DNA from: Stappia taiwanensis
Lineage (GTDB): Bacteria; Pseudomonadota; Alphaproteobacteria; Rhizobiales; Stappiaceae
Direction of reading: 5' to 3'
DNA: 64,000 nucleotides
Assembly (NCBI RefSeq): GCF_014635285.1
Contig: NZ_BMCR01000001.1
Span: forward strand, 1-64,000
Below the pieces are notes generated by a model that saw nothing but the letters and a program-made list of their open reading frames with translations, did not search any database and was not told the origin of the DNA. Of the stretch, positions 39,296-62,043 are shown in pieces; the first letter of the stretch is position 1; each line of letters opens with the position of its first letter. The position numbers were made by a program, and so were the translations under genes.

Positions 39296-40426
39296 ATGCG
39301 GTTTCTTCTTGTTGCGATCTGTGCATCTTTCCTGACGGGCTGCGGGGCGCTGCCGGGGCAGGGGCCGACGGCAATCACCATCACCTCCGAGGATATCGAG
39401 GGCGATGCGATCCGCTCGCAATATGCGCTGATCAACGTGGACCGGAAAGCGGTCAACGCCATCCACGCCTATCGTCCGGAATTGTTTTCCAAGAGCTTTC
39501 GCAAGGTGCCCGGTGGGAGCCGGTCCAGTCGTCTGGGCATTGGCGACCGGCTGGTGGTGACCATTTGGGAGGCGGCGCCCGAAGGGCTGTTCTCCACCCC
39601 CGATGGCAAGCAGGTCTCGGTGCCGGTCGTCGTTGACGAGAACGGATACATCTTCATTCCCTATGCCGGGCGGATCCGCGTTGCCGGCCTGTCGGTCGAG
39701 GGTGTGCGCGCCGGCATTCAGGAGCGGCTGAAGGGCAAGGCGATCGAACCGCAGGTTCTGGTGGTCGTCGAGGGCAACGAAAGCAGCGGCGTGGTGGTCG
39801 TCGGCGATGTGAACAAGCCGGGCCAATACACCATGTCGGTACGCGGCATGCGGCTTCTGGAAGCGGTCGCCCGGGCGGGCGGGTCGCGCCAGGCCACCTA
39901 TGAGACCGTCGTCACCGTCAAGCGGGGCCGCGGGGCGGGGACCGCGCGGCTCGTCGATCTGATCGAATACCCGGAAAACAACATCTGGCTGGTGCCCGGC
40001 GACAACATCCTGCTGACGCACAAGCCGCGCACCTTCTCCGCCTTCGGAGCGGTAAAGAGTACGCAGCTCGTGCCGTTCAAGACCGAATCGGTGACGCTGG
40101 CCGAGGGGCTCGCGCAGGTCGGCGGGCTGAAGGACTTTTTCGCCGATGCCGCCGGTATCTTCCTGTTCCGCTATGAGGACCGCGCTCTGGTGCGCAAGCT
40201 CAAGGGGCCGAGCGCCGACAAGTTCACCAGCAACCGCGTTCCGGTTGTCTACAAGCTCAATCTGCGTCAGGCCGAGGCATTTTTCCTCGCCCGCTCGCTG
40301 GAGATGCGCGACAAGGATATCATCTACGTCGCCAATCATCCGACCGCGGAATTCGGCAAGTTCCTGCAGATCATCGGCCCGCTTCTGTCGAACGTGAACA
40401 CGGCCAATGCGCTGATCACCGATTAG
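39296..40426 (+). CDS. Polysaccharide export lipoprotein, KpsD/RkpU-like (Poly_export family)
   Basis: 376-residue outer-membrane auxiliary export protein. The N-terminus MRFLLVAICASFLTGCGA is a lipoprotein signal with lipobox LTGC. The polysaccharide export domain follows (RLGIGDRLVVTIWEA, then VVVDENGYIFIPYAGRI), then SLBB-like repeats (VVVVGDVNKPGQYTM and FSAFGAVKSTQLVPF). It would form the channel through which capsule or K-antigen leaves the cell. The ATG at 39296 is picked because it begins the signal peptide. It heads the plus-strand capsule genes; KpsM/T/E partners are not in the window. Confidence 0.9.
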   Translation: MRFLLVAICASFLTGCGALPGQGPTAITITSEDIEGDAIRSQYALINVDRKAVNAIHAYRPELFSKSFRKVPGGSRSSRLGIGDRLVVTIWEAAPEGLFSTPDGKQVSVPVVVDENGYIFIPYAGRIRVAGLSVEGVRAGIQERLKGKAIEPQVLVVVEGNESSGVVVVGDVNKPGQYTMSVRGMRLLEAVARAGGSRQATYETVVTVKRGRGAGTARLVDLIEYPENNIWLVPGDNILLTHKPRTFSAFGAVKSTQLVPFKTESVTLAEGLAQVGGLKDFFADAAGIFLFRYEDRALVRKLKGPSADKFTSNRVPVVYKLNLRQAEAFFLARSLEMRDKDIIYVANHPTAEFGKFLQIIGPLLSNVNTANALITD

Positions 40427-40491
40427 GCGGTCGTGGCCATCGGGCCAGATTGCGGGAATGATGAACGGGTGCTGAAATAGGGACGCAAGAC

Positions 40492-40518
40492 ACGCAGGGG
40501 CGCCATGGCGCCCTGCGT
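40492..40518 (+). other. Intergenic hairpin after the export lipoprotein gene
   Basis: ACGCAGGGGCGCCA (40492-40505) can pair with TGGCGCCCTGCGT (40506-40518) with one bulged G. This leaves no free loop unless the central bases open. There is no U-tract. It may attenuate transcription from the export gene into the kps genes. Confidence 0.5.
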
Positions 40519-40558
40519 CTGGCGGATGTCGGGTCGTTAGGGGGGGCAGACAAGACAG

Positions 40559-41911
40559 ATGTCCAACGATCCATCCCCGCACACCGTTCTCTTCCTTCAG
40601 GGGCCTCCGTCGAACTTTCCGCGCATCGTTGCCGACGAGCTGGAAAAGCTTGGACACAAGACGTTTCGCATCAATCTTTCCCTGTCCGACTGGCTGTTGT
40701 GGCATGATCGACGGGCGGTGAGCTTTCGCGGCGGGCTCTCGGCCTGGCCGGCGTTTCTGAAGGCGTTTCTGCTCCGCCACCAGGTGACGGATATCGTCTA
40801 TTATCAGGATCGGTTTCCTTACCATTCGGCGGCGATCGAGGTGGCCCGGGAGCTCGGCCTGCGGGTGATTGCCTATGAGAATGGCTACCTGCGTCCCGAC
40901 TGGATCACGGCGGAGCGGGTGGGCATGTCGGTCCGCTCCCAGTTCCCGGCCGATCCCGGTGCGATTCTTGCCGCCGCGCGCGACTTGCCGCCCATCGATC
41001 TCACGGTGCGTTACCGGCATCCCTTTCCGCTGGAGGCCACCCATGAGGTGGCATTCCACCTGATCAATTTCTTCGTGCGTGCCTTTTATCCCCGGTTCGA
41101 GGCGGACAAGTATTACAGCCCGTTGTTCGAATATCTGTCGATGCTGCCACGGCTCCTGTTTTCCCGGCGTCGGGACCGGATCGCCAAAATTCTGATCGAC
41201 GACGTGATCGAATCCGAAGCGCCCTATTTCGTCTTTGCTCTTCAGCTTCAGAGCGATTACCAGCTTCGCTACAATGCTCCGTTCCCGCATCTGGCCGATG
41301 CGCTCGAAAAGACGATTGCCTCTTTCGCGCAGCATGCGCACCCGGTGGCGCAGCTCGTGGTCAAGGTTCACCCGATGGATCAGGGCATCGAGCCCTGGGG
41401 GCGGATCGTGCGGCAGTTGGCGCGCAAGTATCGGGTGAAGCGGCGCGTGCATCTGGTCGATGGCGGGCATCTGGTGACCTTGCTTCAGCATGCCAGCGGC
41501 GCGTTGATGGTCAACAGCACCACCGGTTTGCACGCCGTCGATCTCGGCTGTCCGGTGAAGATCCTTGGCGCGGCGATCTATGATTTGCCTGGGCTGACCT
41601 GTCAGTTGCCACTCGATCAGTTCTGGCGCAATCCGCAGGCGCCGGACGAGGAGGTTCTGGAGGCCACGCAGCGGCTGCTGGGGCATACCATCCAGATTCA
41701 GGGCAGTTTCTATTCCCGCGCCGGCAAGCAGGCGGCGGCCCGGGAATTCGCCGCCCGGCTCGGCGCCGGTCGGATCAATGGCCCCGGAGGCTGGGTGGAG
41801 CCGCCGCCACGGGAGGAAAAGGCCCGGGCCATGGGCTTGCCGCTGACCTACAGCGAGGAAATGGCCGTGCGTGGCAAGGTCGGACGGTGGCGTCGTGCCT
41901 GGCGCGGGTGA
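40559..41911 (+). CDS. KpsS-like capsule polysaccharide biosynthesis protein, copy 1
   Basis: 450-residue protein of the Capsule_synth family (KpsS type). It has the N-terminal TVLFLQGPPSNFPRIVADEL, a central HPMDQGIEPWGRI (His-Pro typical of the CMP-Kdo site) and VNSTTGLHAVDLGCPVKILG. KpsS proteins are Kdo transferases that start the poly-Kdo linker on a lipid at the cytoplasmic face. No signal peptide is present. It overlaps the next gene, a paralogue, by 41 bases, so the two are translationally coupled. Confidence 0.85.
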   Translation: MSNDPSPHTVLFLQGPPSNFPRIVADELEKLGHKTFRINLSLSDWLLWHDRRAVSFRGGLSAWPAFLKAFLLRHQVTDIVYYQDRFPYHSAAIEVARELGLRVIAYENGYLRPDWITAERVGMSVRSQFPADPGAILAAARDLPPIDLTVRYRHPFPLEATHEVAFHLINFFVRAFYPRFEADKYYSPLFEYLSMLPRLLFSRRRDRIAKILIDDVIESEAPYFVFALQLQSDYQLRYNAPFPHLADALEKTIASFAQHAHPVAQLVVKVHPMDQGIEPWGRIVRQLARKYRVKRRVHLVDGGHLVTLLQHASGALMVNSTTGLHAVDLGCPVKILGAAIYDLPGLTCQLPLDQFWRNPQAPDEEVLEATQRLLGHTIQIQGSFYSRAGKQAAAREFAARLGAGRINGPGGWVEPPPREEKARAMGLPLTYSEEMAVRGKVGRWRRAWRG

Positions 41912-43217
41912 GGGCCAGTCCCCGGCCGGGGCGACACGGCAGCCGGTTCGGCGGTTTCTGTTTCTGCAAGGGCCGTTGTCGCCACTTTTTCGGCGGATCG
42001 GCGCCCGGCTCACCGAGGCCGGGCATGAGGTGCGCCGTATCAATTTCTGCCCCGGCGACTGGTTGCACTGGCATGGGCGTGGCACCATCAGCTATCGTGG
42101 GAGGAGCGCGGACTGGCCAGCCTTCATCGCCGGGTATCTGGCAGAGCATGGCATCACCGATCTGGTGGTGCACGGCGACACGCGGCCCTATCACCGGGCG
42201 GCGGTGCGGGCGGCTGAGGATCTTGGCATTTCAGTGGCCGCCACCGAACTGGGCTATCTGCGGCCCGGCTGGATGACCATTGAACGTGGCGGCCTTTCCA
42301 CCCTCAGCCGCTTTCCCGATACCGCCGACGCAATCCGCGCCGCCGCGCATGCCGCCGGGACCGTTGACCTTACGCCGCGCTACCCCGGCTCTTTCGCGCT
42401 GGAAGCCTGGCAGGATGTCTCCTACCATCTGCCGAATGTGCTCCTGGGATTTCTCTACCCGGGCTACCGGCGCCACACGCCGCTGCATCCGGTCGTCGAT
42501 TACAGCCGCTGGCTGTTGCGGCTTGCCGGCGCGCGGCGGCGAAAAGCGCGCGCGGTCCGGCGCCAGAAGGCGCTGGCGGATGGGAAAGGGCCGCTGTTTC
42601 TGCTGCCTTTGCAGGTGGAGGGGGATTATCAGATCCTCGCCCATTCGCCCTTCGCCACGATGGCGGAGGCGCTGGAGCGGATCATGACCTCCTTCGCCGC
42701 CCACGCCCCGGCGGATGCCCGGCTCGTTGTCAAATCGCACCCGCTGGACAATGGCCATCGCGACTGGCAGCGCTGTGTCACCGAGCTCGCCCGTCGGTTG
42801 GGGCGAGAGGACAGGGTGGTGTTTCTCGATGGCGGTGCGCTGCCGGAGCTGCTGCGCCGGGCAGCGGGGCTCGTCACCGTGAATTCCTCCGCCGGGCTGG
42901 AGGCCTTGCGAGCCGGGGTGTCCGTGAAAACGATGACCCCGGCGCTCTATGATGTCGCGGGATTGACCCATCAGGGCGAGCTGGACGGATTCTGGTCAGC
43001 GCCCGAGGCGCCCGACAGTGCGCTCCTTGCCGATTTCGTCACCGCCATTGCCGCCAGCCTTCAGGTGCGCGGCTCGATCCACAACCGCGCCGGGCTCGAT
43101 GCGGCGGTCGACGGCATGGCGGCGCGCATTCTGACCCAGACGCTCAACGCGCCGGCCAAACCGGTGGAACCGCCACCGCGTCTTGCGCGGGCCCGGGCCC
43201 TCGGGGTGCCGTTGTGA
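41871..43217 (+). CDS. KpsS-like capsule polysaccharide biosynthesis protein, copy 2
   Basis: 448-residue paralogue of the preceding protein. It has the matching blocks FLFLQGPLSPLFRRIGARL, INFCPGDWLHWHGRGTISY, the HPLDNGHRDWQR histidine-proline block and VNSSAGLEALRAGVSVKTM. The GTG at 41871 gives an N-terminal extension of about 20 residues; another GTG at 41895 is possible. Tandem KpsS-like genes are unusual, since most group 2 capsule loci have one. The copies differ widely, suggesting distinct acceptors or linkages rather than recent duplication. Its end overlaps the next gene by 4 bases. Confidence 0.82.
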   Translation: MARSDGGVVPGAGEGQSPAGATRQPVRRFLFLQGPLSPLFRRIGARLTEAGHEVRRINFCPGDWLHWHGRGTISYRGRSADWPAFIAGYLAEHGITDLVVHGDTRPYHRAAVRAAEDLGISVAATELGYLRPGWMTIERGGLSTLSRFPDTADAIRAAAHAAGTVDLTPRYPGSFALEAWQDVSYHLPNVLLGFLYPGYRRHTPLHPVVDYSRWLLRLAGARRRKARAVRRQKALADGKGPLFLLPLQVEGDYQILAHSPFATMAEALERIMTSFAAHAPADARLVVKSHPLDNGHRDWQRCVTELARRLGREDRVVFLDGGALPELLRRAAGLVTVNSSAGLEALRAGVSVKTMTPALYDVAGLTHQGELDGFWSAPEAPDSALLADFVTAIAASLQVRGSIHNRAGLDAAVDGMAARILTQTLNAPAKPVEPPPRLARARALGVPL

Positions 43218-44887
43218 GCGCGCCGATCTGGCTGGCCGACCCGGTGTTGCGACCGATGCGCAAGGCCCTTTCCGCCTGCCTTGGCGCGCCGGTCGACGCC
43301 AACCGCCACCCGCCCGCTTTTTGCGGCGGTATCCTTGTGGCCTTCGCCAGTCCGGCCTTTGAACGCTGGCGGATGATGGCGCTGGAACGGTCCCTTCCGC
43401 TCATTCTCGCTGATGCCGCACCGATGGTGGCGGGGCATGCCTTGCCTGCCTCCGCCTTTCCGCTAAAGGGCATGGTCCGGCTCAGTTTGGCCGAGGTGCC
43501 AAGGACCGTGCTGACGGAAACGATGGACGCCGATGCGGCGCTGATCGGCGCCTTGCGGGCGGCCGGGGAGGCGCAGGCGATGGTCTCGCCGGCGACCTTG
43601 TCCGAGGCGGATGTCTGGCGTTTCGATGCGCTGGAACGGGCGTTGCAGCGGCTCGGCGGGGAACCGGCGGGCGAGCCACAGCAGGCCGGGCTGCACGGCG
43701 CGCTGATGGCCGCGTCTTTCGTTTATCCCAGCCCTTATGACCGCAAGACGTGCCTGTCTGCCGTTCACATGCAGCACGCTCTGAACGCCGCGCTGCGCCG
43801 CGACCGGCTGGCGGATCGCCGCGGGCATTGTTTCGGCGTGAAATCCTGGAACCAGGCTGCCGTGCGCGCGGCTTTCGGAGCGCCGGGGCTGGAGGTTGTC
43901 ATGGAGCGCTCAGCGGCGGAGGCGGTGGCCGGCGCTCGTCGCGATGGCGGCCGCGTGCTTGCCTGGGCCGGGCAGGTGAACGCGGATCTGATCGACCGCG
44001 CCCGAGCCGAGGAGATCGAACTCTGGCGTATTGAAGACGGGTTCCTGCGCTCCGTCGGTCTCGGCGCCGGCCTCGCCCGAGGCGCGTCCTTCGCCTATGA
44101 CGATACGGGTGTCTATTTCGATGCGCGCGGCGCGAGCCGCATGGAACGGCTGCTGCAGGAGCGGAGCCTTCAACCGCATGAGGTGGCCCGCGCCCGTGCG
44201 CTGCTGCGGTGCATCGTCGAGGCGGGCCTGTCGAAGTACAACATCGCCGGCCGCCGGTCGCTGCCGGCCTTGCCTTCGGACAGGGAGGTGATTCTGGTGC
44301 CGGGTCAGGTCGCCGACGATGCCGGCGTGCACCGCTCGTTGTCCGACGTGATCGACTGCGAGCGCGTTGCCAACATCAATCTGGAGCTGTTGCGCTGCGT
44401 GCGTGACCGCAACCCGCAGGCGCATATCCTCTACAAACCGCATCCGGATGTGGATGCACGCTTGCGGGCCGGACGGTTGTCAGCCTCGGAGTTGTCGGGC
44501 CTTGCCGATGATGTGGTTGCCGGCTGCGACCTGGGAGAGCTGTTGCGCGCCTGCTCCCGGGTCGAGACGTTTTCCTCCCTGACCGGCTTCGAGGCGTTGC
44601 TGCGCGGCAAGCCGGTGACGGTCTACGGTATGCCGTTCTATGCGGGCTGGGGCCTGACGCAGGATCTCAGCCGATGCGCCCGTCGGACCCGGCGCCTTGA
44701 TCTGGAGACCCTGGTGCATGTGGCCTTCATCGACTATCCGCTGAGTGTCGATCCGGTGTCCCTGAAGCCTTGCGGTCCGGAATTCCTGATCGAGCGGCTG
44801 CAGCAGCAGCGCGGCGATGCCCGCTATCGCTTGCGCCAGCGGGTGCGGCAGGAGCTATCCTGGCTGGGGCGCAAACTGGGGCTCTGA
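43214..44887 (+). CDS. KpsC-like (RkpJ-like) capsule polysaccharide biosynthesis protein
   Basis: 557 residues, GTG start overlapping the previous stop. The C-terminal half (about 260-520) has strong KpsC features: VILVPGQVADDAGVHRS, HILYKPHPDVDARL, and VETFSSLTGFEALLRGKPVT followed by YGMPFYAGWGLT. The N-terminal half lacks a recognisable complete second copy of that module. Classical KpsC is about 675 residues with two Kdo transferase modules that alternate linkages. Here only one appears intact. This may relate to the extra KpsS-like gene upstream. It is the last plus-strand gene before the convergent PKS operon. Confidence 0.85.
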   Translation: MSAPIWLADPVLRPMRKALSACLGAPVDANRHPPAFCGGILVAFASPAFERWRMMALERSLPLILADAAPMVAGHALPASAFPLKGMVRLSLAEVPRTVLTETMDADAALIGALRAAGEAQAMVSPATLSEADVWRFDALERALQRLGGEPAGEPQQAGLHGALMAASFVYPSPYDRKTCLSAVHMQHALNAALRRDRLADRRGHCFGVKSWNQAAVRAAFGAPGLEVVMERSAAEAVAGARRDGGRVLAWAGQVNADLIDRARAEEIELWRIEDGFLRSVGLGAGLARGASFAYDDTGVYFDARGASRMERLLQERSLQPHEVARARALLRCIVEAGLSKYNIAGRRSLPALPSDREVILVPGQVADDAGVHRSLSDVIDCERVANINLELLRCVRDRNPQAHILYKPHPDVDARLRAGRLSASELSGLADDVVAGCDLGELLRACSRVETFSSLTGFEALLRGKPVTVYGMPFYAGWGLTQDLSRCARRTRRLDLETLVHVAFIDYPLSVDPVSLKPCGPEFLIERLQQQRGDARYRLRQRVRQELSWLGRKLGL

Positions 44888-44933
44888 GGCGGGGTGAAAG
44901 GGGGCGTGCGGTTGCGGTCAGGGGGAGGCGAGA

Positions 44934-46322
44934 TCAGTCCCGGGCGCTTTTGACGAGTGAGCCAAAGCCGACATTCTGCTCGCGCAACAGCGCCAGTTCC
45001 TCGGCGGTGGCCGCAACCGCCCGGTCGATCTGCGCATCGCTGTGCTCGCTGGTGATGAAGAAGCGAAGCCGCGCCGATTTCTCCGCCACCGCCGGAAAGA
45101 CGATCGGCAGCGCGTTGATTCTGCGTTTCAGCAACCGGTTGGAAAGCGTTGCCGCGCCGATGGAATCGCCGACAATGACGGGAATGACGCTGTAGCCGGC
45201 GCTGTTTCCGGTATCGAGACCGGCGGCGCGCGCGCGGGTGAGAAAACGCTGGCCGTTGGCCGCGAGCCGCGCCACCCGTTCCGGCTCCTGCTCCAGGATT
45301 TCCGCCGAGGCGAGGGCGGCGGCGGCCAGCGGCGGTGCCAGCCCGACGGAAAAGACGAAGCCCGGCGCGGTGGCCCTCAGATAATCGCACAGGGCCTTTG
45401 AGCCGGCGATATAGCCGCCACAGGCCGACAGGGTCTTCGACAGGGTGCCCATCCACATCTCGACCGTGTTTGGGTCGATGCCGAAATGCTCGGCGATCCC
45501 CTTGCCGGTCTTGCCGAGGACGCCGAAGGAATGGGCTTCGTCCACCAGCAGCCAGGCGCCGAACTCCTGTTTCAGGCGGATCAGTCGGGGCAGGTCGGGG
45601 AAATCCCCATCCATGCTGTAAATGCCTTCCACGGCGATCAGCACGTTTTCGTAGCGGTGCCGGTTGTCGATCAGCAGCTTTTCCAGCGCGTCGAGATCGT
45701 CATGGGGGAAGTTCTTGCGTGCGGCACCGGACAGGCGCGCGCCCTCACTGATCGAGTTGTGCACCAGCGCATCGGTCAGGACCAGGTCGCCTTCGCCGAG
45801 CAGGTGACCGATGGTTGTCACATTGGTGGCATGACCGCTGACCATGACCACCGCGTCCTCGACGCCGTGCAGCCGGGCAAGGGCTGCCTCCAGCGCGCCA
45901 TGCACCGGGCGCTCGCCCGCCACCACCCGGCTGGCGGAGGCGCTGGTGCCGTAGGTGCGGATCGCCGCTTCCGCCGCTGCGTTGACGCGCGGATCACCGG
46001 TCAGGCCGAGGTAGTTGTAGGAGGAGAAGTTGTCGTGCTCGGTGCCGTGCAGGACGCTGGTTGCGCCAGCGACCCCCTCATGGGGCTGAAAGAACGGATT
46101 GTCGAGGCCGATCATGTCCGCCGCCGCCCGGTGCATGCGGAGCTGCCGCACGGGCGCCAGCTCCGAGAAGTCGAAGGCGCCGGGCTTGTGTGCTGAGGCG
46201 GCCGGAGTGGACGGAGACGCGGCTGGTGCGGTGCTGCGCTGACGTGCGGATTTGTGTCCGGCGCGCAAATTCGCCACCAGCTTGTCGCGCTTGGTGCCGG
46301 ACGGTTTGCGCGCGTCGGTCAC
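44934..46322 (-). CDS. Alpha-oxoamine synthase (AONS/RkpG-like)
   Basis: 462-residue PLP-dependent enzyme of the 8-amino-7-oxononanoate synthase/serine palmitoyltransferase family. The first 50 or so residues are basic and Ser/Ala-rich. The core shows NYLGLTGDPRV, LVDEAHSFGVLGKTGKG and the PLP lysine in MGTLSKTLSACGGYIAG. Such enzymes condense an acyl thioester with an amino acid. No other bio genes are near, and its start overlaps the stop of the PKS gene by 4 bases. It therefore most likely releases the PKS-bound acyl chain as an amino-ketone lipid, as proposed for Sinorhizobium RkpG beside RkpA. Confidence 0.88.
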   Translation of the reverse strand: MTDARKPSGTKRDKLVANLRAGHKSARQRSTAPAASPSTPAASAHKPGAFDFSELAPVRQLRMHRAAADMIGLDNPFFQPHEGVAGATSVLHGTEHDNFSSYNYLGLTGDPRVNAAAEAAIRTYGTSASASRVVAGERPVHGALEAALARLHGVEDAVVMVSGHATNVTTIGHLLGEGDLVLTDALVHNSISEGARLSGAARKNFPHDDLDALEKLLIDNRHRYENVLIAVEGIYSMDGDFPDLPRLIRLKQEFGAWLLVDEAHSFGVLGKTGKGIAEHFGIDPNTVEMWMGTLSKTLSACGGYIAGSKALCDYLRATAPGFVFSVGLAPPLAAAALASAEILEQEPERVARLAANGQRFLTRARAAGLDTGNSAGYSVIPVIVGDSIGAATLSNRLLKRRINALPIVFPAVAEKSARLRFFITSEHSDAQIDRAVAATAEELALLREQNVGFGSLVKSARD

Positions 46323-49300
46323 AGCAGGGACCTCACGTCCTTGCTCCGCGCTTCCACCTTCGCCGCCACATCGGCCAGCGCCTCCTTGTCCGCAAGGGCT
46401 TCCTCGCCAAGATGCTGCTGCGAGGTTGCCCGGGCATCGGCGGACAGTCCTGCGTCCGCGTCCCCGTCGCCGGACATCGCCTGATCGGCGATCCGACCGG
46501 CCATGTCCTGGAGTGTTGCCCCGTTGGCAAGCGACATCAGCGGAATGTCGATGCCGAACTGGCGCTCCGCGGCCATCCGCAGCTCCAGCGCCATCAGCGA
46601 ATCCATGCCGACCTCCGCCAGAGGCCGCGCGGCGTCGATCTCCTCCCGGCCGATACGCAGGATCCGGGCGATCTCGACCGCGAGCAAATCGCTGATCCTG
46701 GCAATCGCCTGCGGCCGATCGAGGCCGGACAGAAGCTCGGCAAGGTCAACGGCCGCGCCTTCTCCGGAGCGGTCGTCGGCCTCGCCAAGGCCGAGCCGTT
46801 CGGCAAAGGGAGTGGCCAGGAGGGCCAGATCGCGCCGGGCCGCCGCCCAGTCGATGCGGGCAAAGCCGGGCGCGGCGTCATCCTGCTGCTCCGGCGGCAG
46901 GGACATCAGCACAACGAGCGCATCGAGCGCCTCGCGCGCGGTCAGGGCATGGCGCCCCAGCTTGCGCGCCAGCTTGTCGCCGACCTCATCGTTGCGGGCG
47001 AGATAACCGGCGTCGGAAATGGCACCCCAAGCAATGGCGAGGCCGGGATGTCCGGCGGCGCGGCGACGGCGCACGAGCCCTTCCAGATAGCCATTGGCCG
47101 CAACGTAATTCGCCTGTCCCGGATTGCCGACCAGGGTGGTCGCCGAGGAAAACAGCACGAAATGGGCGAGCGGATCGTCCCGGGTCAGCCGGTCGAGCAG
47201 GTCCGCGCCGCGCACCTTCGGCGCCAGCACCGCATCGAGCGCCGCGCGGTCGAGATTGGCCAGTAGCGTATCCTTCAGCACCATCGCCGTGTGGAACACG
47301 CCGCCAATCGGCCCGAGCGTGCCGCGCACGTCAGCCAGGGCGGCGGTCAGCGCCGTCTCGTCGGTGACGTCGCAGGCGTGCCCGGCAAGCGTGACGCCGC
47401 GTCCGGCCATTTCGGCGATCAGCGCCTCGGCACCCGGCGTTTCGGCCCCGCGCCGCGACAGAACCGCGATCTTGCGGGCACCGACATCGGCAAGGCGGCG
47501 GATCAGCTCCGCACCAAAGCCGCCGAAGCCGCCGACCACCACCTGCACGGTTTCCGCTTGGAGGGAAACAGGCGCGACCGGTTCTGCCGGTGCGCTCACC
47601 CGCGGCGGTTGCAGCACCAATTTGCCGATATGGCCGGCCTGCTGCATCAGCCGGAAGGCGCCCACCGCGTCATCGGCCGGGAAGGTGCGATAGGGCAGCG
47701 GGGCAAGTTCGCCAGCGGCGAACAGCGCCATCAACTCCTGCATCACCTTTTGTGCCAGCACGGGCTGGTGGATCAGCAACTGGTCGGCGTCGATGCCGAA
47801 ATAGCTGAGGTTCTGGCGGAACGGCCTGAGGCCGATATGGGTGTTGGCGTAGTAGTCCCGCTTGCCCAGTTCGAGGAACCGTCCGAACGGCTTCAGCACG
47901 TCGATGCTGCGTTCCATTGCCTCGCCGGAGAGCGAGTTCAGCACCACCTCCACACCGGCGCCGTCGGTGATTTCCATCACCGCATCGGCGAAGTCGAGTG
48001 AGCGGGAATCAAGCACATGATCGACGCCGAGATGGGTCAGGAAGCTGCGCTTCTCGTCGCTGCCGGCGGTCGCGATCACCGTCGCGCCGATATGCCGGGC
48101 GATCTGGAAGGCGGCCAATCCGACGCCGCCGGCGCCGCCATGGATGAGGATGGTCTCGCCCGGTTGCAACTGCGCAAGACGGGTGAGGGCGTAGAAGGTC
48201 GTCAGGAACGCCACCGGGATGGTCGCGGCGGCCTCGGCCGGGATCCCCTCGGGCGCTGCGGCGCAGCCGGTTTCCGCGACCTGCACATGACTGGCGAAAC
48301 AGGCTGGAGCAAAGGCGATCACCCGATCCCCGACCGCAAAGCGGGTGGCCTCGGGACCGCAGGCAACGACCCGACCACAGCATTCCATGCCCAGCGTCGC
48401 GCCGGCAAAACCGTCTTCCAGCGCTTCTTCGGGAAGCAGTCCGAGCGCCCACATCACATCGCGGAAGTTCAGGCCGCTGGCCTCCACCGCAATTTCCACA
48501 TCCGCGCCGCGTGGTGGCGTGCGGGTCGTCTCCTGCCATTCCAGCCGGTCGAGGGAGCCCTGGCCGGCGATCTCAAGACGCATGGCCGGTGCGCCGGCGG
48601 GCGTGCCGCCAGCACGGGGCGGCAAGGCAATCCCGGCATCAAGGCGCAGGCCAAGCCGCGTGTCGCCGGTCAGAATGATTTCGCGCTCATCGTCCTCCTG
48701 CAGCACCTCACGCGCCAGACGTAGCGCGGCATTGCTGGCTTCCAGATGCGCGTCGATGTCGATTAGCTTGAGGTTCAGCGACGGGTATTCGTTGAGCGCC
48801 ACCCGGGCGTAGGTCCAGATCGCCGCCTGAACCGGATCGGCGGCGCGCCGCGCGCCGTGGGGGGCGACTATGGTGAGAGGGAGGTTGAGCGCCGAAAGCT
48901 GGCGCAGCAAGAGGGTCAGCGCCCAGCTTCGCGCACTGACGGCTGCCGCATCGTCGCCGCCGTGAAGATACGCCCCCTGCAGATGCACGACCCCGGCCTG
49001 TGCGGCGCTGGAGAGATCGTCATCTTCAGCCAGCGCTTGCGGGTCTGACGGGTCCAGCTGCCATTCGTTGGGCGCGAGACGACAGGTTTCCGGCCCCAGA
49101 ACGGCCAGCGCGGCCTCGACGCCGTGGCGCGACAGGGTCTCGCGCAGGGCGCTGGCCACCGCTCGACTCTGTCCGTCGGCATCGCACAAAAGCAGCATCC
49201 GCCGGCGCGGCGCATCCTCTGAGGCCTCGGCGGCAGGTTCAGCGGCGGGGACGATCCGGGCAATCTCGTCGGCATGGGCGAGGATCAGGTTCGCCTCTAC

Positions 49301-52300
49301 CAGATCGGTTGCGAGCGGCGCGCTTTCCATCCCGCGCCAGCCGCAGGCCGCAAGGCGGTCGTTCCAGTCCGGACCGTCGCGCAGCGGCGACCGCGCCACC
49401 GCCGTATCGGTTTCACCGGACCACCAGCCGCTGCCAATGCCATTGATGAGGTCGATGCCGGCCGCCGGCACCCGCTCCACAGCGATCAGCCGGCCATCGG
49501 CGGCCATCCGCTTGCCAAGGAGGGAAAGCCTGCTGGACGCTGTCTCCGACAGAGCATCGCAGGCAAGCACCAGATCGAAGGGGCCGAGGGGGGCAAGCGC
49601 CTCCGCATCGAGCGGCGCGAAACTGGTCGTCGGATTGCCGGTCCACTGCCGCCCCAGTCGTTCGACACTGGAGGCGGTCCGGTCGGTGACCACCAGCTTC
49701 ATGCGGTTGTCGTTGAGCAAGCCGGCGAGCCGGCGCGCGAGCACCGGGTCGCGCGCGCCCAGCAGGAGTACCGTCAGGGGCCGGTCTTCCGGCCAGTCGC
49801 GCGTGAGGCGCGCGGCGAGCGCCAACAGGGCACTGCGCATTGCCTCCGCCGCCGGGCTGGCGCTGCGATAGGCCTCAAGCAGCGCCGGGGCGAACAGCGC
49901 TTGCGCCGTCTCGCCCAGGCCGTCGCGCAGTACCGTGGGCAGGTCGCCCGCGAGGCGAGCAAGAAGCGCCGTCTCCGGTCCATGGGCGCTGGCTTCCTGG
50001 AACAGGGTCTGCACTAGATCGGCGATGCCGAAGTCCTCGTCCGGTGGTGCGATCTCCCAGCCGGCATCTGTCAGCCAGGCCAACTCATGGGTCGCCAGCA
50101 GGTCGAGGCACCGGGTGGCCAGCGGCATTGCGCTGTCATGCAAGGTTCCGCGCGCGATCACCTCGGCAAGGTCCAGCGGTCCGGCGACCTCGATGGCAAG
50201 CCCGTGGAAGGCATGATGAACGAGCGTGCGCGCCAGCGCATCGAGCAGCAGTGTTGCATCGTCGGGATCGAAATCCTCGCCATCCGGACGCAGAAGGTCG
50301 AGTTCGTCCGCCAGAGCGGCGATGCGCGGGACATCGGGAGCCGGCGCGTCGTCATTGCCGCGGAGCAGGCGCTGGGACACGCGGTAGAGCATCCCGTCAT
50401 CGTGCGGTCCGCTGTCGAACTGCACCGCCTTGAAGCGAGCCCCCGCAAGGCGCGCCACCAGCTCTCCAGCGGCATCGAGATAGTCGAGATCGGCCAGGAT
50501 CGAGCGCTGCCCCGCCCGGATGACGGTGATGCGCACGGAGGTGGGAGCGCGTTCCGGTTGGTAGAGCTTCACCGCACCGATGCGGATCGGCAGGAAGCCG
50601 GTTTTGCCATCTGCCGCCGCGTGCTCGGCCATCAGGGCGAACAGGCCGTGGAAGCCAGCGTCGGTGAGAGCCGGATGCAGAGCGAACTGAGCAGCTTCAG
50701 GCGTTGCGACTGCTGGTGTCAGGGTGGCGATCGCCATGCGCGGCCCTGCCAGTTCGACCGTTTCGACGAGCCGGAAAGAGGGGCCGTAGTCAAGGCCATG
50801 CGCACGGGTGATGGTGTAGAGCGCCTCCGCGTCAAGGCGCCTGGCCTCGGGCCGGGAGCGGGCGGCGTCGACCTTTCCGGCTCCGGCAAGGCTGCGGTAG
50901 CTGGCGCGCGCGTTCAGCGACCAGTCCGCCCCTTGCAGCCGGGGGCGGCTGAGAATCTCGATGACCCGATCGTCCGGAGACAGTCGAACAAGGGTCTCTT
51001 GCAAGCTGCGGTCGTCAAACACCAGCGGCCGCAGGATCTCCAGATCGCGGATTTCGACGTCGCCGGAGCCGGTCCACTCAAGCGCGGCGCGCAAGGCCAT
51101 CTCGATGAAGCCGGTTGCCGGGAAGACCGTGGCCTCTTCCACCTTGTGGTCGGCGAGGAAGGGCAGGAGGTCCGGATCGAGGGTGTTGAACCATTCACCG
51201 GTTTCCGGCCGGAGCCGGGCGCCGGCCAGCGGCCAGAAATCGCCGAAGGCGCCGCCGATCCGTTCATCTGTGTGCTCGACGAGATGGGGGCTGTTCTGCC
51301 ACGGGTAATGTGGCAGGTCCGGCAGATCTCGGCCGTTGGGGCCGATATAGGCATCGAGATCGGGGCGGGCGCCATGGGCGACAAGGCGGGCGGCGATCAT
51401 GTCGATGGTGACCTCGCCGCCGTCGCGCCTGGGGGCATCGAGCGAGGTCAGAATGGCGGCGCTGTTTGTTTCTTCGCGCAGCACGTCGCGGATGTAGGTG
51501 GTCAGGATCGGCCGGGGACCGATTTCGACGATCATATCGATCTCGCCTTCGATCAGCCGCGTCAGCCCCTCTCGGAAGCGCACGGGCAGTCGGACGTTCT
51601 GCCACCAGTAGGTGGCATCGGGTGTAATCGAGTCCCGCTCCGGGAAGACGGTCGAGATGAAGGGGGGGGCAGGCGTGCGACTTTCGATCTCGCCCAGCGC
51701 CGCGCGCAATGGCTCTTCGATCGGATCGACAAGAGCGCAGTGGAACGGGTAGGCGAGGCCAAGCTTGCGGAAGGCCCAGCGGCGTTTGCGGGCAAGGGCG
51801 GCGAAGGCATCGATGCTCTCGACCGGACCGGAAAGGGTCACGCTGCGCGGGCTGTTCACCGCCGACAGCTCGATACCCGGCAGGCCGGCGTCGGCGATGG
51901 CCGCGCGGGCATCCGCCTCCGGCAGCAGCAGGGCCGCCATGGTGCCGAGGTGGCGAACCACCTCCTGCTGGGTGGAGCGGGCATGGATGATCCGCGTGGC
52001 GGTGGCCAGATCGACCATGCCGGCACACCAGGCAGCGGCGACCTCGCCAACGCTGTGGCCGATCACCGCGTCAGGGCGAAGGCCCCGCGCCTCAAGCGCG
52101 CGCACCAGGGCGACCTGCAGGCCGAACAGCAGCGGCTGGGCGATCTCCGTCCGCTCGATTTCTGCGTCGAGATCCTTGGAAAACAGCATGGTGACAAGCG
52201 ACCAGCCGGAGACTGCCATGAAATGCCGGTCGGTCTCTTCCAGCGCCTCGCGGAAAGCGGCATCGCCCCGGTAGGCGGACTGGCCCATGCCGGCCCACTG

Positions 52301-53908
52301 CGAGCCGTTGCCGGCAAAGGCATAGGCAAGACCCCGGGCGCGTGGATTGGCCTTGCCTTCGATCAACCCGGGGGCGCTGTCACCGTGCGCATGCGCTTCA
52401 AGGGCCGCGCGTTTGTCGGCGGCGGTCTCGCCCAATATCACCAGCCGGTGGTCGAGCAGGTCGCGGCGCCGGGCGGCCGCGTCGAGCAGCGGGCCGACCG
52501 TTTCGGTCTTCTCCGCGTGCTCAAGTGCCTCGGCATAGCGGGCGGCCAGGTCACGCAAGGCAGCCTGACTGCGCGCGGAAATCACTAGCGGCGCTGTGTC
52601 GGGAACATCGCTTTGCGGCGGGCGGATCGGGTCCCCTTCTGCGATCACCGTATGCGCATTGGTGCCGCCGAAGCCGAAGGAGTTGATCCCAGCGAGCCGG
52701 CCCACTCCGGGGGTGTCAAGGGCAAGGGGTGCGCCCGCGACCGACAGGTTGAGCGCCTCGAAATCGATATTCGGATTCGGCGTATCGAAATGGAGGGAAC
52801 GCGGCAGCTGCCGGTGTTGCAGGGCCAGGATCGACTTGAGGACACCGGCAAGGCCCGAGACCGGCTCCAGATGGCCGATGTTGGTCTTGACCGATCCGAT
52901 TGGCACCGGCGTCTGGCGACGCTGGCCGATGGCAACGCCCAGTGCGTTGGCCTCAGCCGGATCTCCCACCGGCGTGCCGGTGCCATGCGCCTCGATGAAG
53001 GCAAGATCTTCGGGGGAAATGTCGAAGTCGCGGTAGATGGAGTGCAGCAGGGCGGCCTGTGCCTGCGAGCAGGGCAGGGAAAGGCCCGTGGTGCGGCCAT
53101 CCGCGTTGATGCCGCTGGCAATGATGCGGGCGTGGCGCTTCAGAATGGCGGCGTCGTCCCGCTGCAACACCAGGGCGACCGCGCCTTCGGAGCGCACGTA
53201 TCCATCACCATTGGCATCGAAAGCCCGGCACAGGCCGTTTTGCGACAGCATGGAGGCGCGGGCGAAGCCGATGAAGGAGAACGGGCTGAGCAACAGGTTG
53301 ACGCCGGCGACGATGGCGGTCTCGATCTGCCCGCTTTCAAGGGCGCTGACCGCCTGATGCAGGGCCACCAGCGACGAGGAGCAGGCCGTGTCGAGGGTGA
53401 AGCTTGGTCCGCGCAGGTCGAAAATGTAGGAAATGCGGTTGGAGACGATCGACAGGGTGTTGCCGGTCATCATCTGAACATCGACGATCGGCAGGTCGAA
53501 CAGCAGCCGGTGATGATAGTCGAGGGCGGAGGCCCCCACATAGACGCCAGTGTTGGTCCCGGCCAGCTCCGACGGCTTCAGGCCGGCATGCTCGATGGCT
53601 TCCCAGACCACTTGCAGCAGCAGCCGTTGCTGTGGGTCGATCTGCGCCGCTTCGCGCGGGGAAATTCCAAAGAATCCGGGATCGAACCCCCAGACATCGT
53701 CAATCTGGCCGGCAGCGAAGGTGAAGCTTCTGCCAGCGGTATTCGGCCGGGGATGAAAGAACCGGCGCTTGTCGAAGCGATCCTCGGAGATCTCGCCGAC
53801 CGAACAGCGTCCCTCGGTGAGCAGCGACCAGAATTCGTCCGGCGTTGAGGCGCCGGGCAGGCGCGCGGCGAATCCGGTAATCGCAGTGTTATGGGCACGT
53901 AGCGACAT
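46319..53908 (-). CDS. Type I polyketide/fatty acid synthase (RkpA-like), KS-AT-DH-(MT0)-ER-KR-ACP
   Basis: 2,529-residue single-module highly reducing synthase. Domains in order: ketosynthase (about 8-430, active cysteine in DTACSSS near residue 176); acyltransferase (about 530-840, serine in GHSVGEV near 618); dehydratase (about 900-1170, HKVEEATVFP near 921 and the aspartate in HPALTDAGFH near 1082); a methyltransferase-like region (about 1370-1520) lacking the SAM glycine motif; enoyl reductase (about 1775-2100, GGAGGVGLA); ketoreductase (about 2120-2300, VGGFGGFG and NPGQANYVAANGY); and ACP (GMDSLMALELR, serine near 2436). No thioesterase is present, which fits release by the downstream oxoamine synthase. 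A GGAAG site precedes the ATG at 53908. It probably iterates to a saturated chain for a capsule lipid. Confidence 0.92.
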   Translation of the reverse strand: MSLRAHNTAITGFAARLPGASTPDEFWSLLTEGRCSVGEISEDRFDKRRFFHPRPNTAGRSFTFAAGQIDDVWGFDPGFFGISPREAAQIDPQQRLLLQVVWEAIEHAGLKPSELAGTNTGVYVGASALDYHHRLLFDLPIVDVQMMTGNTLSIVSNRISYIFDLRGPSFTLDTACSSSLVALHQAVSALESGQIETAIVAGVNLLLSPFSFIGFARASMLSQNGLCRAFDANGDGYVRSEGAVALVLQRDDAAILKRHARIIASGINADGRTTGLSLPCSQAQAALLHSIYRDFDISPEDLAFIEAHGTGTPVGDPAEANALGVAIGQRRQTPVPIGSVKTNIGHLEPVSGLAGVLKSILALQHRQLPRSLHFDTPNPNIDFEALNLSVAGAPLALDTPGVGRLAGINSFGFGGTNAHTVIAEGDPIRPPQSDVPDTAPLVISARSQAALRDLAARYAEALEHAEKTETVGPLLDAAARRRDLLDHRLVILGETAADKRAALEAHAHGDSAPGLIEGKANPRARGLAYAFAGNGSQWAGMGQSAYRGDAAFREALEETDRHFMAVSGWSLVTMLFSKDLDAEIERTEIAQPLLFGLQVALVRALEARGLRPDAVIGHSVGEVAAAWCAGMVDLATATRIIHARSTQQEVVRHLGTMAALLLPEADARAAIADAGLPGIELSAVNSPRSVTLSGPVESIDAFAALARKRRWAFRKLGLAYPFHCALVDPIEEPLRAALGEIESRTPAPPFISTVFPERDSITPDATYWWQNVRLPVRFREGLTRLIEGEIDMIVEIGPRPILTTYIRDVLREETNSAAILTSLDAPRRDGGEVTIDMIAARLVAHGARPDLDAYIGPNGRDLPDLPHYPWQNSPHLVEHTDERIGGAFGDFWPLAGARLRPETGEWFNTLDPDLLPFLADHKVEEATVFPATGFIEMALRAALEWTGSGDVEIRDLEILRPLVFDDRSLQETLVRLSPDDRVIEILSRPRLQGADWSLNARASYRSLAGAGKVDAARSRPEARRLDAEALYTITRAHGLDYGPSFRLVETVELAGPRMAIATLTPAVATPEAAQFALHPALTDAGFHGLFALMAEHAAADGKTGFLPIRIGAVKLYQPERAPTSVRITVIRAGQRSILADLDYLDAAGELVARLAGARFKAVQFDSGPHDDGMLYRVSQRLLRGNDDAPAPDVPRIAALADELDLLRPDGEDFDPDDATLLLDALARTLVHHAFHGLAIEVAGPLDLAEVIARGTLHDSAMPLATRCLDLLATHELAWLTDAGWEIAPPDEDFGIADLVQTLFQEASAHGPETALLARLAGDLPTVLRDGLGETAQALFAPALLEAYRSASPAAEAMRSALLALAARLTRDWPEDRPLTVLLLGARDPVLARRLAGLLNDNRMKLVVTDRTASSVERLGRQWTGNPTTSFAPLDAEALAPLGPFDLVLACDALSETASSRLSLLGKRMAADGRLIAVERVPAAGIDLINGIGSGWWSGETDTAVARSPLRDGPDWNDRLAACGWRGMESAPLATDLVEANLILAHADEIARIVPAAEPAAEASEDAPRRRMLLLCDADGQSRAVASALRETLSRHGVEAALAVLGPETCRLAPNEWQLDPSDPQALAEDDDLSSAAQAGVVHLQGAYLHGGDDAAAVSARSWALTLLLRQLSALNLPLTIVAPHGARRAADPVQAAIWTYARVALNEYPSLNLKLIDIDAHLEASNAALRLAREVLQEDDEREIILTGDTRLGLRLDAGIALPPRAGGTPAGAPAMRLEIAGQGSLDRLEWQETTRTPPRGADVEIAVEASGLNFRDVMWALGLLPEEALEDGFAGATLGMECCGRVVACGPEATRFAVGDRVIAFAPACFASHVQVAETGCAAAPEGIPAEAAATIPVAFLTTFYALTRLAQLQPGETILIHGGAGGVGLAAFQIARHIGATVIATAGSDEKRSFLTHLGVDHVLDSRSLDFADAVMEITDGAGVEVVLNSLSGEAMERSIDVLKPFGRFLELGKRDYYANTHIGLRPFRQNLSYFGIDADQLLIHQPVLAQKVMQELMALFAAGELAPLPYRTFPADDAVGAFRLMQQAGHIGKLVLQPPRVSAPAEPVAPVSLQAETVQVVVGGFGGFGAELIRRLADVGARKIAVLSRRGAETPGAEALIAEMAGRGVTLAGHACDVTDETALTAALADVRGTLGPIGGVFHTAMVLKDTLLANLDRAALDAVLAPKVRGADLLDRLTRDDPLAHFVLFSSATTLVGNPGQANYVAANGYLEGLVRRRRAAGHPGLAIAWGAISDAGYLARNDEVGDKLARKLGRHALTAREALDALVVLMSLPPEQQDDAAPGFARIDWAAARRDLALLATPFAERLGLGEADDRSGEGAAVDLAELLSGLDRPQAIARISDLLAVEIARILRIGREEIDAARPLAEVGMDSLMALELRMAAERQFGIDIPLMSLANGATLQDMAGRIADQAMSGDGDADAGLSADARATSQQHLGEEALADKEALADVAAKVEARSKDVRSLL

Positions 53909-54191: not shown

Positions 54192-55199
54192 TCAAGAAAC
54201 CCCTTCCTGGGCACCCATGTTGCGTTGGGCGAGATGTTTTTCCCAGTCGAGCGCATGCTGGACGATCAGATCGAGATCGGCGTATTGCGGCTGCCAGTCG
54301 AGTTTTTCAAGGATGGCGGTATTGTCGGCGATGACACGCGGGGAATCACCCACTCTGCGTTGTCCCAGCTGGATCGGGAAGTCGTTGCCGGACAGCCGCT
54401 TTACGGCGTCGATCACCTCATACACGGAGTAGCCGTGGCCATAACCGCAATTGAGCGTAAAGCTCTCCGGCTTGATGCGCAGGTGCTGCAGTGCCAGATA
54501 GTGGGCATTCACGAGATCGGACACATGGATGTAGTCGCGCAGGGCGGTGCCGTCGGCGGTGTCGTAGTCGGTGCCGAAGACGCTCATGCCCGGGCGTTTT
54601 CCGGTTGCCGCCTCGCAAGCCACCTTGATCAGGTGGGTCGCACCATCGGTTGATTGTCCGGTGCGTTGGTGGGGGTCGGCGCCCGCCACATTGAAATAGC
54701 GCAGCGCAACATAGTGTAACGCACCGGTCGCTGCGATGTCGCGCAGCATCTGCTCGATCATCAGCTTCGACGTGCCATAGGGGGAGAGGGGGGCAAGAGG
54801 GGTATCCTCGGCCACCGGAGCCTCTTCCGGAGCGCCATAGAGGGCGGCGGTGGAGGAGAAGATCAGTCGATTGATCCCGGCCTTGAGGCAGTGGTCGACA
54901 AGCGCGAGCGTGGCGCAGGTGTTGTTGCGATAGTATTTGATCGGGTCGGCGACGGATTCAGGGACCACCACCGATCCGGCGAAATGGATCACGGCCTCGA
55001 TGTCATGCGCGTTGGTGATCCGTTCGATGATGGCCGGATCGTCGATGTCGCCGCGCACGAAATGCGCTTGCCCGGCGATCGCCCATTCATGTCCGGTGCA
55101 CAGGTTGTCGAGGACCACCACATCTTCGCCAGCGTCGAGCAATGTCCAGACCATATGGCTGCCGATATAGCCGGCGCCGCCGGTGACCAAGATCGCCAT
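54192..55199 (-). CDS. galE: UDP-glucose 4-epimerase
   Basis: 335-residue short-chain dehydrogenase-type epimerase, full length. The NAD motif VTGGAGYIGSHMVWTLLDAG opens the protein. The catalytic YxxxK is in SPYGTSKLMIEQM, and the family segments FNVAGADPHQRTGQ and TADGTALRDYIHVSD are present. It interconverts UDP-glucose and UDP-galactose for surface glycans. An AGGAGG site precedes the ATG. It lies upstream of the PKS gene in the same direction, 283 bases away, and is divergent from ugd. Confidence 0.95.
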   Translation of the reverse strand: MAILVTGGAGYIGSHMVWTLLDAGEDVVVLDNLCTGHEWAIAGQAHFVRGDIDDPAIIERITNAHDIEAVIHFAGSVVVPESVADPIKYYRNNTCATLALVDHCLKAGINRLIFSSTAALYGAPEEAPVAEDTPLAPLSPYGTSKLMIEQMLRDIAATGALHYVALRYFNVAGADPHQRTGQSTDGATHLIKVACEAATGKRPGMSVFGTDYDTADGTALRDYIHVSDLVNAHYLALQHLRIKPESFTLNCGYGHGYSVYEVIDAVKRLSGNDFPIQLGQRRVGDSPRVIADNTAILEKLDWQPQYADLDLIVQHALDWEKHLAQRNMGAQEGVS

Positions 55200-56931: not shown

Positions 56932-56979
56932 CCTTCGCTTTGCCGGAAGGTGTGTTCGAACAAGGAAAGAGCGGTGATC

Positions 56980-57798: not shown

Positions 57799-57915
57799 CC
57801 ACTGAAGCTGAATGACAGAGATTTTTTAATCTCCGGCATTTGTCCGCAATCCTGTTCCTCGCACATCCCCCGCCTTGCGCCTTAAGTCAGGAGAGAAGGG
57901 ACGGCGCTGAGCCGT

Positions 57916-57936
57916 CCCGACAAGGTTCCTGTCGGG
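57916..57936 (+). other. Hairpin in the cysQ-cysD gap
   Basis: CCCGACA (57916-57922) pairs with TGTCGGG (57930-57936) around a 7-base loop, with no U-tract. A second small one (GAGATT-TTTT-AATCTC, 57818-57833) lies just after the cysQ stop. Either could shape the 222-base leader of cysD; no known riboswitch class was recognised. Confidence 0.45.
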
Positions 57937-58020
57937 GCCGGGCGTTGCCGCATGTCGCGGATGGCCCGCACGGCGAAGGCCACACGCGAAAAAGCGCGCG
58001 TGGAGAGCGAGGGTCAGATC

Positions 58021-58926: not shown

Positions 58927-58936
58927 GGACCATGAC

Positions 58937-61869: not shown

Positions 61870-62043
61870 GTGGCGCCATACTGATCTCGCATGAGGTCGG
61901 CCGCGCGTCGCCCTTGTGGGATAGGCCTTCAAGGAAAAACGCGTTAACGTCCTTGCAGGACCGTGGGGTTATATCCATGGTCAAGCACATCCTGTGGCTG
62001 CGGCGCCGCCCGCCGCGCGGATTGTGCAGCGAGACAACTCGGC

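Follow-up and report, generated by a model that had tools for sequence, protein, structure and literature searches.

A polyketide synthase and oxoamine synthase pair beside capsule genes in Stappia taiwanensis as a candidate sphingoid lipid module for capsule synthesis

Why do the genes of a lipid-making polyketide synthase (PKS) and an alpha-oxoamine synthase (AOS) face a set of capsule genes in Stappia taiwanensis? The locus occupies positions 39296-53908 of a 64,000-nucleotide window (the whole stretch of DNA analysed here), which opens contig 1 of a genome of 4.4 Mb in 20 contigs. Our preferred answer, to which we give a probability of about 0.5, is that the pair is a capsule-dedicated lipid module, whose sphingoid base serves as the start for a KpsS/KpsC capsule. 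The parts are ordinary singly, and it is their combination at this locus that is new. In other bacteria the module is completed by an RkpI-like phosphoglycerol transferase, a point missing from the original prediction made for this DNA.

Open reading frame (ORF) and family searches found the six genes at the positions first proposed. An outer-membrane polysaccharide export lipoprotein (OPX, KpsD/Wza-like) is encoded on the + strand at 39296-40426 (PF02563, 57 bits; SLBB domains; lipobox LTGC), its mechanical ORF starting upstream, at 39191. On the same strand lie two KpsS-like transferases, KpsS1 (40559-41911; PF05159, 256 bits; NF050054, 224 bits) and KpsS2 (41871-43217; PF05159, 254 bits; NF050054, 211 bits), both under the NF050054 equivalog cut-off of 600 bits, and a single-module KpsC-like transferase of 3-deoxy-D-manno-octulosonic acid (Kdo) (43214-44887; PF05159, 107 bits; best solved relative 6mgd). 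The - strand carries the RkpG-like AOS (44934-46322), predicted from its clade and GTLSK motif to use serine and to be serine palmitoyltransferase (SPT)-like, and the RkpA-like iterative type I PKS (46319-53908), with the Pfam domains KS-AT-DH-ER-KR-ACP (mechanical ORF from TTG 53926, ATG at 53908). The two genes overlap by four bases, GTGA, covering the stop of the PKS and the GTG start of the AOS. The KpsC-like and AOS genes end 46 bases apart, the capsule genes converging on the PKS-AOS pair. This confirmed the arrangement originally described, capsule genes converging on an RkpA-/RkpG-like pair with a 4-base overlap. The PKS is fully reducing and ends shortly past the ACP; no thioesterase was matched in it by the Pfam domain search, as had been claimed.

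The enzyme dependent on pyridoxal phosphate, the AOS, had been proposed as the release step, giving a sphingoid-type product. This proposal is supported by an experimental precedent in PMC12134224. The PKS SgaA and the AOS SgaB of P. fluorescens MYb115 yield C24, C26 and C28 sphinganines, together with products whose extra mass of 154 Da led to their assignment as phosphoglycerol sphingolipids; SgaB has serine palmitoyltransferase activity and uses serine almost exclusively. The product of the window's pair is probably sphingolipid-like as well. In a tree of 34 oxoamine synthases, the window AOS fell in a fully supported group of 18, comprising 16 RkpG-like enzymes and a second type, from contig C10 of the same genome and from Acidisoma. 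The RkpG-like enzymes include those of S. meliloti (50% identical to the window AOS), R. sullae, Shinella, Methylobacterium, Caballeronia, Paraburkholderia, a Pseudomonas plasmid, Stappiaceae and one bin, as well as PKS-fused forms of Planktothrix and Streptomyces. Outside this group are BioF and Kbl of E. coli, the ALAS of the Stappia genome and the serine palmitoyltransferases of Sphingomonas and Roseomonas. A canonical bacterial SPT was ruled out by the position of the AOS outside the Sphingomonas/Roseomonas clade. In the Planktothrix fusion, PKS and AOS form one protein of 2532 aa (L086:5560-13158) with a fatty acyl-AMP ligase nearby, and the Streptomyces fusion is KS-AT-ACP-AOS without reducing domains (L089:8347-13170). 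In Caballeronia and Paraburkholderia a gene of the LpxC deacetylase family lies between PKS and AOS (L084, L090).

Lysine K296 of the AOS lies within GTLSK, where a serine precedes the lysine as in the SPT rows, while BioF, Kbl and ALAS have glycine there; we infer serine as the substrate. If glycine or alanine were used instead, an amino-ketone of the 1-deoxysphingoid type would enter the capsule pathway. Relatives such as Kbl, ALAS and BioF do use these amino acids, the solved structure that matches best is that of a BioF/Kbl enzyme, and the substrate residues are not readable from the sequence with certainty. However, the near-exclusive use of serine by SgaB and the SK motif point the other way, and a 1-deoxy base would offer no 1-hydroxyl for phosphoglycerol or a sugar, so that we consider this route quite unlikely. 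A different role, synthesis of 7-keto-8-aminopelargonic acid (KAPA) for biotin, had been named as a finding that would overturn the prediction. The bioF model TIGR00858 does match the AOS, at 340 bits, and bioB is present (C10:48829-49746). Nevertheless, this identity was rejected, and the AOS is highly improbable as the genome's KAPA synthase, because the score is below the cut-off of 426 bits, the AOS belongs to another clade and overlaps the PKS, bioB has no bioF neighbour, and bioD had no match in the genome (the control was positive in 9 of 14 genomes). Biotin-precursor auxotrophy is probable from the lone bioB and the missing bioD match.

The six-gene block is conserved. A scan gave 43 loci, a full-length PKS adjoining the AOS in 18; all six genes were kept in 17 of these, one clipped at a contig end. 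By title the 17 belong to Stappia, Roseibium and Labrenzia, plus one Rhodobacteraceae bin, the closest named genome being Stappia indica SN13-18 (AOS 95% identical). The 18th, from an alphaproteobacterial bin, kept PKS, AOS and export protein. Since all 17 closest loci hold the whole set, the block is not due to chance.

Co-occurrence was then counted in 397 genomes of the order. At a cut of at least 530 bits (our own choice, between two separate score groups), RkpG-like AOS were found at 101 places in 98 genomes, and Capsule_synth (PF05159, E 1e-10) in 124 genomes. PF05159 was present in 84 of the 98 genomes with an RkpG-like AOS vs. 40 of the 299 others (odds ratio 39). Kinship was handled by genus-level counting only, which gave 26/36 genera with AOS vs. 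22/105 without (p 7e-8). In the window's family, PF05159 was found in 17/17 AOS genomes vs. 0/3 AOS-free genomes (p 0.0009), and over the order at least 47 of the 101 AOS had a PF05159 gene within 30 kb. Among 40 RkpG-like loci of up to 20 kb, 35 had a PKS and 20 a reductase of either type. A search of the phylum found RkpG-like AOS in 17 of 398 genomes, seven of them outside the order; in three of these seven, all of one family, a phosphoglycerol transferase gene overlaps the PKS gene (PF00884 confirmed for one). The proposed tie to capsule synthesis is supported by the co-occurrence of AOS and PF05159. These counts also bear on the rival explanation that the pair makes a free sphingolipid, which would act in the membrane or as a secretable signal, as has been proposed for SgaAB, and would be inherited along with the capsule genes without anchoring the capsule. 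SgaAB lipids do act on the nematode host (PMC12134224), and RkpG-like AOS also occur without PF05159 and in non-capsule settings. This explanation is nonetheless somewhat unlikely in view of the 17/17 vs. 0/3 distribution in the family, and of KpsS loci whose gene content and KpsS clade vary with AOS presence.

The phosphoglycerol transferase is part of that variation. In S. meliloti the genes for PKS, AOS, reductase, an RkpI-like frame and KpsS stand in a row (the rkp letters were assigned from this gene order). RkpI belongs to PF00884, as do its counterparts in Caballeronia, Paraburkholderia, Pseudomonas, Shinella and Acidisoma, and these proteins have membrane-like front parts. The best solved match of RkpI and of the Paraburkholderia member is the phosphoglycerol transferase GacH, and for one of the two also a lipoteichoic acid (LTA) primase. 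Residues E220, T262, D442 and H443, which we take to be catalytic, are invariant in six aligned RkpI-type members. Twelve plasmid loci were chosen by AOS similarity, ten of them related to the RkpG group. All eight Proteobacteria loci among these ten have the transferase, and it was not seen in the Streptomyces and Planktothrix loci; the Methylocystis and Roseomonas loci carry other AOS groups, and no phosphoglycerol transferase was seen there either. The Acidisoma plasmid (L094) has AOS, reductase, KpsS, KpsC, an LTA-synthase-family gene and an ABC exporter, with no PKS seen within 29 kb; ordinary fatty acid synthesis may supply its acyl chain.

Next, 20 KpsS loci from AOS-free genomes (19 genomes) were compared with 20 from AOS-bearing genomes in which the assembly does not place the KpsS locus next to the AOS, both sets hand-picked across genera. 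The phosphoglycerol transferase was detected in 9/20 loci of AOS-bearing genomes vs. 0/20 of AOS-free genomes and the reductase in 11/20 vs. 1/20 (p 0.0012 each), with profiles built from AOS-linked loci that lean towards such loci (the transferase profile includes six of the eight plasmid examples). AOS-free loci gave no match to the transferase profile at E < 1e-3. Reductase and phosphoglycerol transferase together would provide a route to a primer resembling lyso-phosphatidylglycerol (lyso-PG).

The KpsS proteins follow the same division. A tree of 85 of them places KpsS1 in a clade of 26 rows (support 100/100) with 0/20 rows from phosphoglycerol-transferase loci and 0/20 from AOS-free genomes. 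KpsS2 belongs to an 11-row clade that is its sister (pair 97/93). Every one of 16 two-KpsS loci has exactly one copy in the KpsS1 clade, the other grouping outside the KpsS2 clade in some loci. KpsS2 is 48% and KpsS1 44% identical to S. meliloti RkpJ; D233 and H271 of KpsS1 are invariant in an alignment of 9 rows. The transferase and a second KpsS were not seen together: in 49 KpsS-bearing loci (a mixture of named loci picked by AOS similarity and order-wide loci, omitting the 13 near-copies L025, L026 and L028-L038), two KpsS were present in 0/20 loci with the phosphoglycerol transferase vs. 16/29 without it, or 0/12 vs. 11/19 when merged by genus by hand (p 0.0014). The reductase accompanied 20/20 loci with the transferase vs. 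14/29 without. Two KpsS being found only where the transferase is missing, duplication of KpsS in such lineages is suggested, and the pattern suggests that one copy took over the step readying the base for the linker.

The KpsC-like gene announced by the original prediction is present, but it encodes one Kdo-transferase module (residues about 200-535) and not the two of E. coli KpsC, the canonical form (PMC10148158). Its AlphaFold model (mean pLDDT 81) has Z scores of 29.9 to 6mgd, the best solved relative and a beta-(2-7)-Kdo transferase (2,7 also in PMC10148158), and 29.8 to 6mgb, a tie that leaves 2,7- and 2,4-Kdo transferases undistinguished. The N-terminal 200 residues had no fold-search match, to which we attach no weight. 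By a hand count that scored a very weak second module as two, KpsC has two modules in 9/10 AOS-free cases and one in 35/39 AOS-associated cases, 19 of these 39 being from the window's family. An alternative is that the product of RkpA and RkpG is a substituent, acyl or aminoacyl, or that their effect on capsule or lipopolysaccharide is indirect, the anchor being the usual (lyso)PG. In E. coli, (lyso)PG-Kdo forms the end of group 2 capsules (PMC10148158), and KpsS and KpsC are present in the window. However, reductase and phosphoglycerol transferase, one-module KpsC and separate KpsS clades are left unexplained by this alternative, which we therefore hold to be improbable.

If a 3-keto sphingoid base is made, a reductase is expected to act on it. 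The original prediction stated that rkpH was absent and that the chemistry might differ. The first part is true of the locus: no RkpH-type reductase lies beside the AOS in the window or in 8/8 genomes of the two nearest genera. The genome does, however, encode a TSC10-like reductase on contig C10, beside the second AOS. Its best solved relative is TSC10 (3-ketodihydrosphingosine reductase), and it is 40% identical to S. meliloti RkpH. This type of reductase adjoins the second AOS in 6/6 loci examined (the genome's own L066, L176-L179 and L184). A reductase of another type, a short-chain dehydrogenase/reductase (SDR), lies beside the AOS in 6/6 RkpG-bearing genomes of the sister genus, and Roseibium relatives have an adjacent reductase. 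The Roseibium-type enzyme gave 35 SDR matches in the Stappia genome, the top-scoring one at 35% identity, with no clear counterpart. The second AOS was found in 8/8 genomes of the two genera without a locus reductase and was absent in the 6/6 sister-genus genomes that keep one; the two differences may reflect one evolutionary change.

The neighbourhood of the second AOS (L066, C10:86000-104000) contains this SPT-like enzyme, the KDSR-like reductase, myo-inositol-phosphate synthase, DUF4833, PgpA, a CTP transferase, an LptF/LptG permease and a CDP-alcohol phosphatidyltransferase. It resembles the Bacteroides type of gene set for inositol sphingolipids (cf. PMC9246714), unexpected in an alphaproteobacterium. 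A phosphonate set lies next to it (L066:10200-17438). This set comprises PhyH, two aminotransferases (class V and class III) and, both above cut-off, a phosphoenolpyruvate mutase-nucleotidyltransferase fusion and a phosphonopyruvate decarboxylase; a phosphono-sphingolipid is a possible product.

The search of the genome for kpsMTE that had been suggested found these genes on contig C4 (C4:197036-199822; local models KpsM 170, KpsT 285 and KpsE 249 bits), with NCBIfam KpsM and KpsE models matching under cut-off. Next to them are a further cysD-cysNC pair and a gene with a weak match to sulfotransferases.

These elements can be arranged as a pathway, in which each chemical step, and the use of a sphingoid as capsule anchor, we infer from gene content. 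Using its own ACP, the PKS would assemble a long, saturated acyl chain by iterative extension, and the AOS, with its overlapping start, would condense the chain with L-serine, releasing a 3-keto sphingoid base that a reductase would convert to sphinganine. Where relatives have every gene of the set, a GacH/LtaS-like enzyme would move glycerol phosphate from phosphatidylglycerol (PG) onto the base, and the resulting phosphoglycerol-sphinganine, similar to lyso-PG, would take its first Kdo from KpsS. In the window's family the first sugar would probably be placed straight onto the sphingoid base, followed by the action of KpsS2 and the one-module KpsC; direct glycosylation is probable because the phosphoglycerol transferase was not found and a KpsS1 of a distinct subfamily is present. 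Export would proceed via KpsMTE and the OPX lipoprotein.

Several observations weigh against a capsule-dedicated sphingoid module. PF05159 was not matched (E 1e-10) in 14 of the 98 RkpG-like genomes (10 of 36 genera), and no capsule gene is annotated in the stretch seen around the PKS-AOS fusions of the Streptomyces and Planktothrix plasmids. Because of such genomes and fusions, the PKS-AOS pair does not serve capsules solely. Of the 40 RkpG-like loci of up to 20 kb, KpsS is present in 16 and the phosphoglycerol transferase in three. No repeat-unit glycosyltransferase was recognised at the locus. A protein search with the longer RkpI piece, run without a positive control, found no phosphoglycerol transferase in the Stappia genome, and none of its three PF00884 proteins matches the model of this enzyme. 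By their CxPxR-type motifs, these three are presumably arylsulfatase-like. Four of the nine KpsS loci with the phosphoglycerol transferase, all of one genus, are on contigs of 10-11 kb and may adjoin an AOS; without them, the transferase is found in 5/16 and the reductase in 7/16 (p 0.012 each). The other five lie at least about 30 kb from the AOS, three of them at least 0.3 Mb. At genus level the differences are 3/9 vs. 0/12 for the transferase (p 0.06) and 4/9 vs. 1/12 for the reductase (p 0.12). The inner group of 16 RkpG-like enzymes has moderate support (80/80). Among solved structures the AOS is nearest to a BioF/Kbl enzyme (222 bits) and to human SPTLC2 (216 bits), which does not decide the substrate. 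TSC10 is not the best solved relative of S. meliloti RkpH or of the Roseibium reductase. The likeness of the window locus to sgaAB was drawn by gene make-up, and the locus has no reductase. A division of labour between KpsS1 and KpsS2, which form sister clades, is a guess.

Beyond the PKS start, the window contains genes for sugar-nucleotide supply and sulfate activation. A UDP-glucose 4-epimerase, GalE (54192-55199, - strand; TIGR01179, 440 bits, above cut-off), probably supplies sugar nucleotides. It is followed on the + strand by a nucleotide-sugar (UDP-glucose) dehydrogenase (55615-56931; TIGR03026, 460 bits, above cut-off), by cysQ, cysD and cysNC (56950-60823; CysQ, CysD and CysNC models above cut-off), for sulfate activation and recycling of 3'-phosphoadenosine 5'-phosphate, possibly serving capsule sulfation, and by an S-adenosylmethionine-dependent methyltransferase and a mannose-1-phosphate guanylyltransferase/isomerase for sugar-nucleotide supply (61033-63489). 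Genes for UDP-glucuronate, GDP-mannose and 3'-phosphoadenosine 5'-phosphosulfate would fit an acidic, perhaps sulfated, capsule. The cysD and cysNC genes recur next to PKS-AOS or kpsMTE in the window, L068, L234 and L236, hinting at a sulfated capsule; cysQ is also present in the window, L234 and L236 (genes of the last two loci named by eye from their frames).

The gene patterns described here, taken together with the SgaAB chemistry of 2025, offer a full route, open to testing, by which a lyso-PG-like primer for KpsS would arise from malonyl-CoA, serine and PG. They reduce the old question of what lipid rkpA-G-H-I make to a short list of assays. A wider proposal, which we put forward tentatively and as possible rather than probable, is that many Proteobacteria capsules are anchored on a PKS-made sphingolipid. 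In the rkpI branch a lyso-PG mimic, phosphoglycerol-sphinganine, would be the primer; in the window's branch KpsS1, as a duplicated KpsS, would replace the phosphoglycerol step and glycosylate the base directly; and the MYb115 cluster would be a capsule-anchor cluster. If this is true, some capsules have an anchor other than a glycerophospholipid, the clade of a KpsS may show which acceptor it takes, and a sphingolipid published as a secondary metabolite may be capsule-anchor material. The Pseudomonas plasmid has its reductase gene five locus tags beyond the AOS, and the genes for KpsC and the phosphoglycerol transferase lie in the interval; in MYb115, SgaC likewise follows SgaB by five tags (RS19800 to RS19775, in steps of five; PMC12134224). 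Judged by this numbering alone, the MYb115 cluster would be a capsule cluster if its intervening genes match those of the plasmid. The main text of PMC12134224 has no occurrence of 'capsul', 'rkp' or 'wcb', and PMC12220298, a capsule review of 2025, has none of 'sphing', 'polyketide', 'rkp' or 'wcb'. No paper tying PKS-made sphingolipids to capsule anchors was among the matches listed.

Compared with known systems, the window shares with sgaAB(C), whose homologous clusters number 6,101 and are dominantly from Burkholderia (PMC12134224), the pairing of a monomodular iterative PKS with an AOS. Caulobacter and Sphingomonas SPT clusters have the AOS family in common with it, but acyl supply in Caulobacter relies on a stand-alone AcpR and an acyl-ACP synthetase (PMC9386255), whereas the PKS of the window carries its own ACP. 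PKS genes of the wcbR/rkpA kind in capsule clusters were already known, and the Burkholderia wcb cluster resembles the window in having such a PKS inside a capsule cluster (PMC3908369). The likeness to wcb was drawn by description, while sequences were compared with the plasmid relatives from Caballeronia and Paraburkholderia. The Swf synthases of sponges were excluded, being separated from WcbR/RkpA by their authors (PMC3908369). The window also resembles the rkp-1 region of S. meliloti (rkpA-G-H-I-J), with a PKS lacking a thioesterase followed by an AOS, a KpsS-like RkpJ and an export protein near. The comparison of synteny with rkpAGHIJ that had been suggested thus gives agreement in the PKS, the RkpG-clade AOS and the KpsS-like RkpJ, but not in RkpH and the phosphoglycerol-transferase-like RkpI, which are adjacent in S. 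meliloti; the window differs further in its two KpsS, its one-module KpsC and its convergent orientation. We take WcbT to be the AOS of the Burkholderia wcb cluster. With E. coli group 2 KpsSC the window shares KpsS-/KpsC-like Kdo transferases, KpsMTE and an OPX protein, and it differs from that system in a KpsC of one module instead of two, a doubled KpsS and an attached lipid factory.

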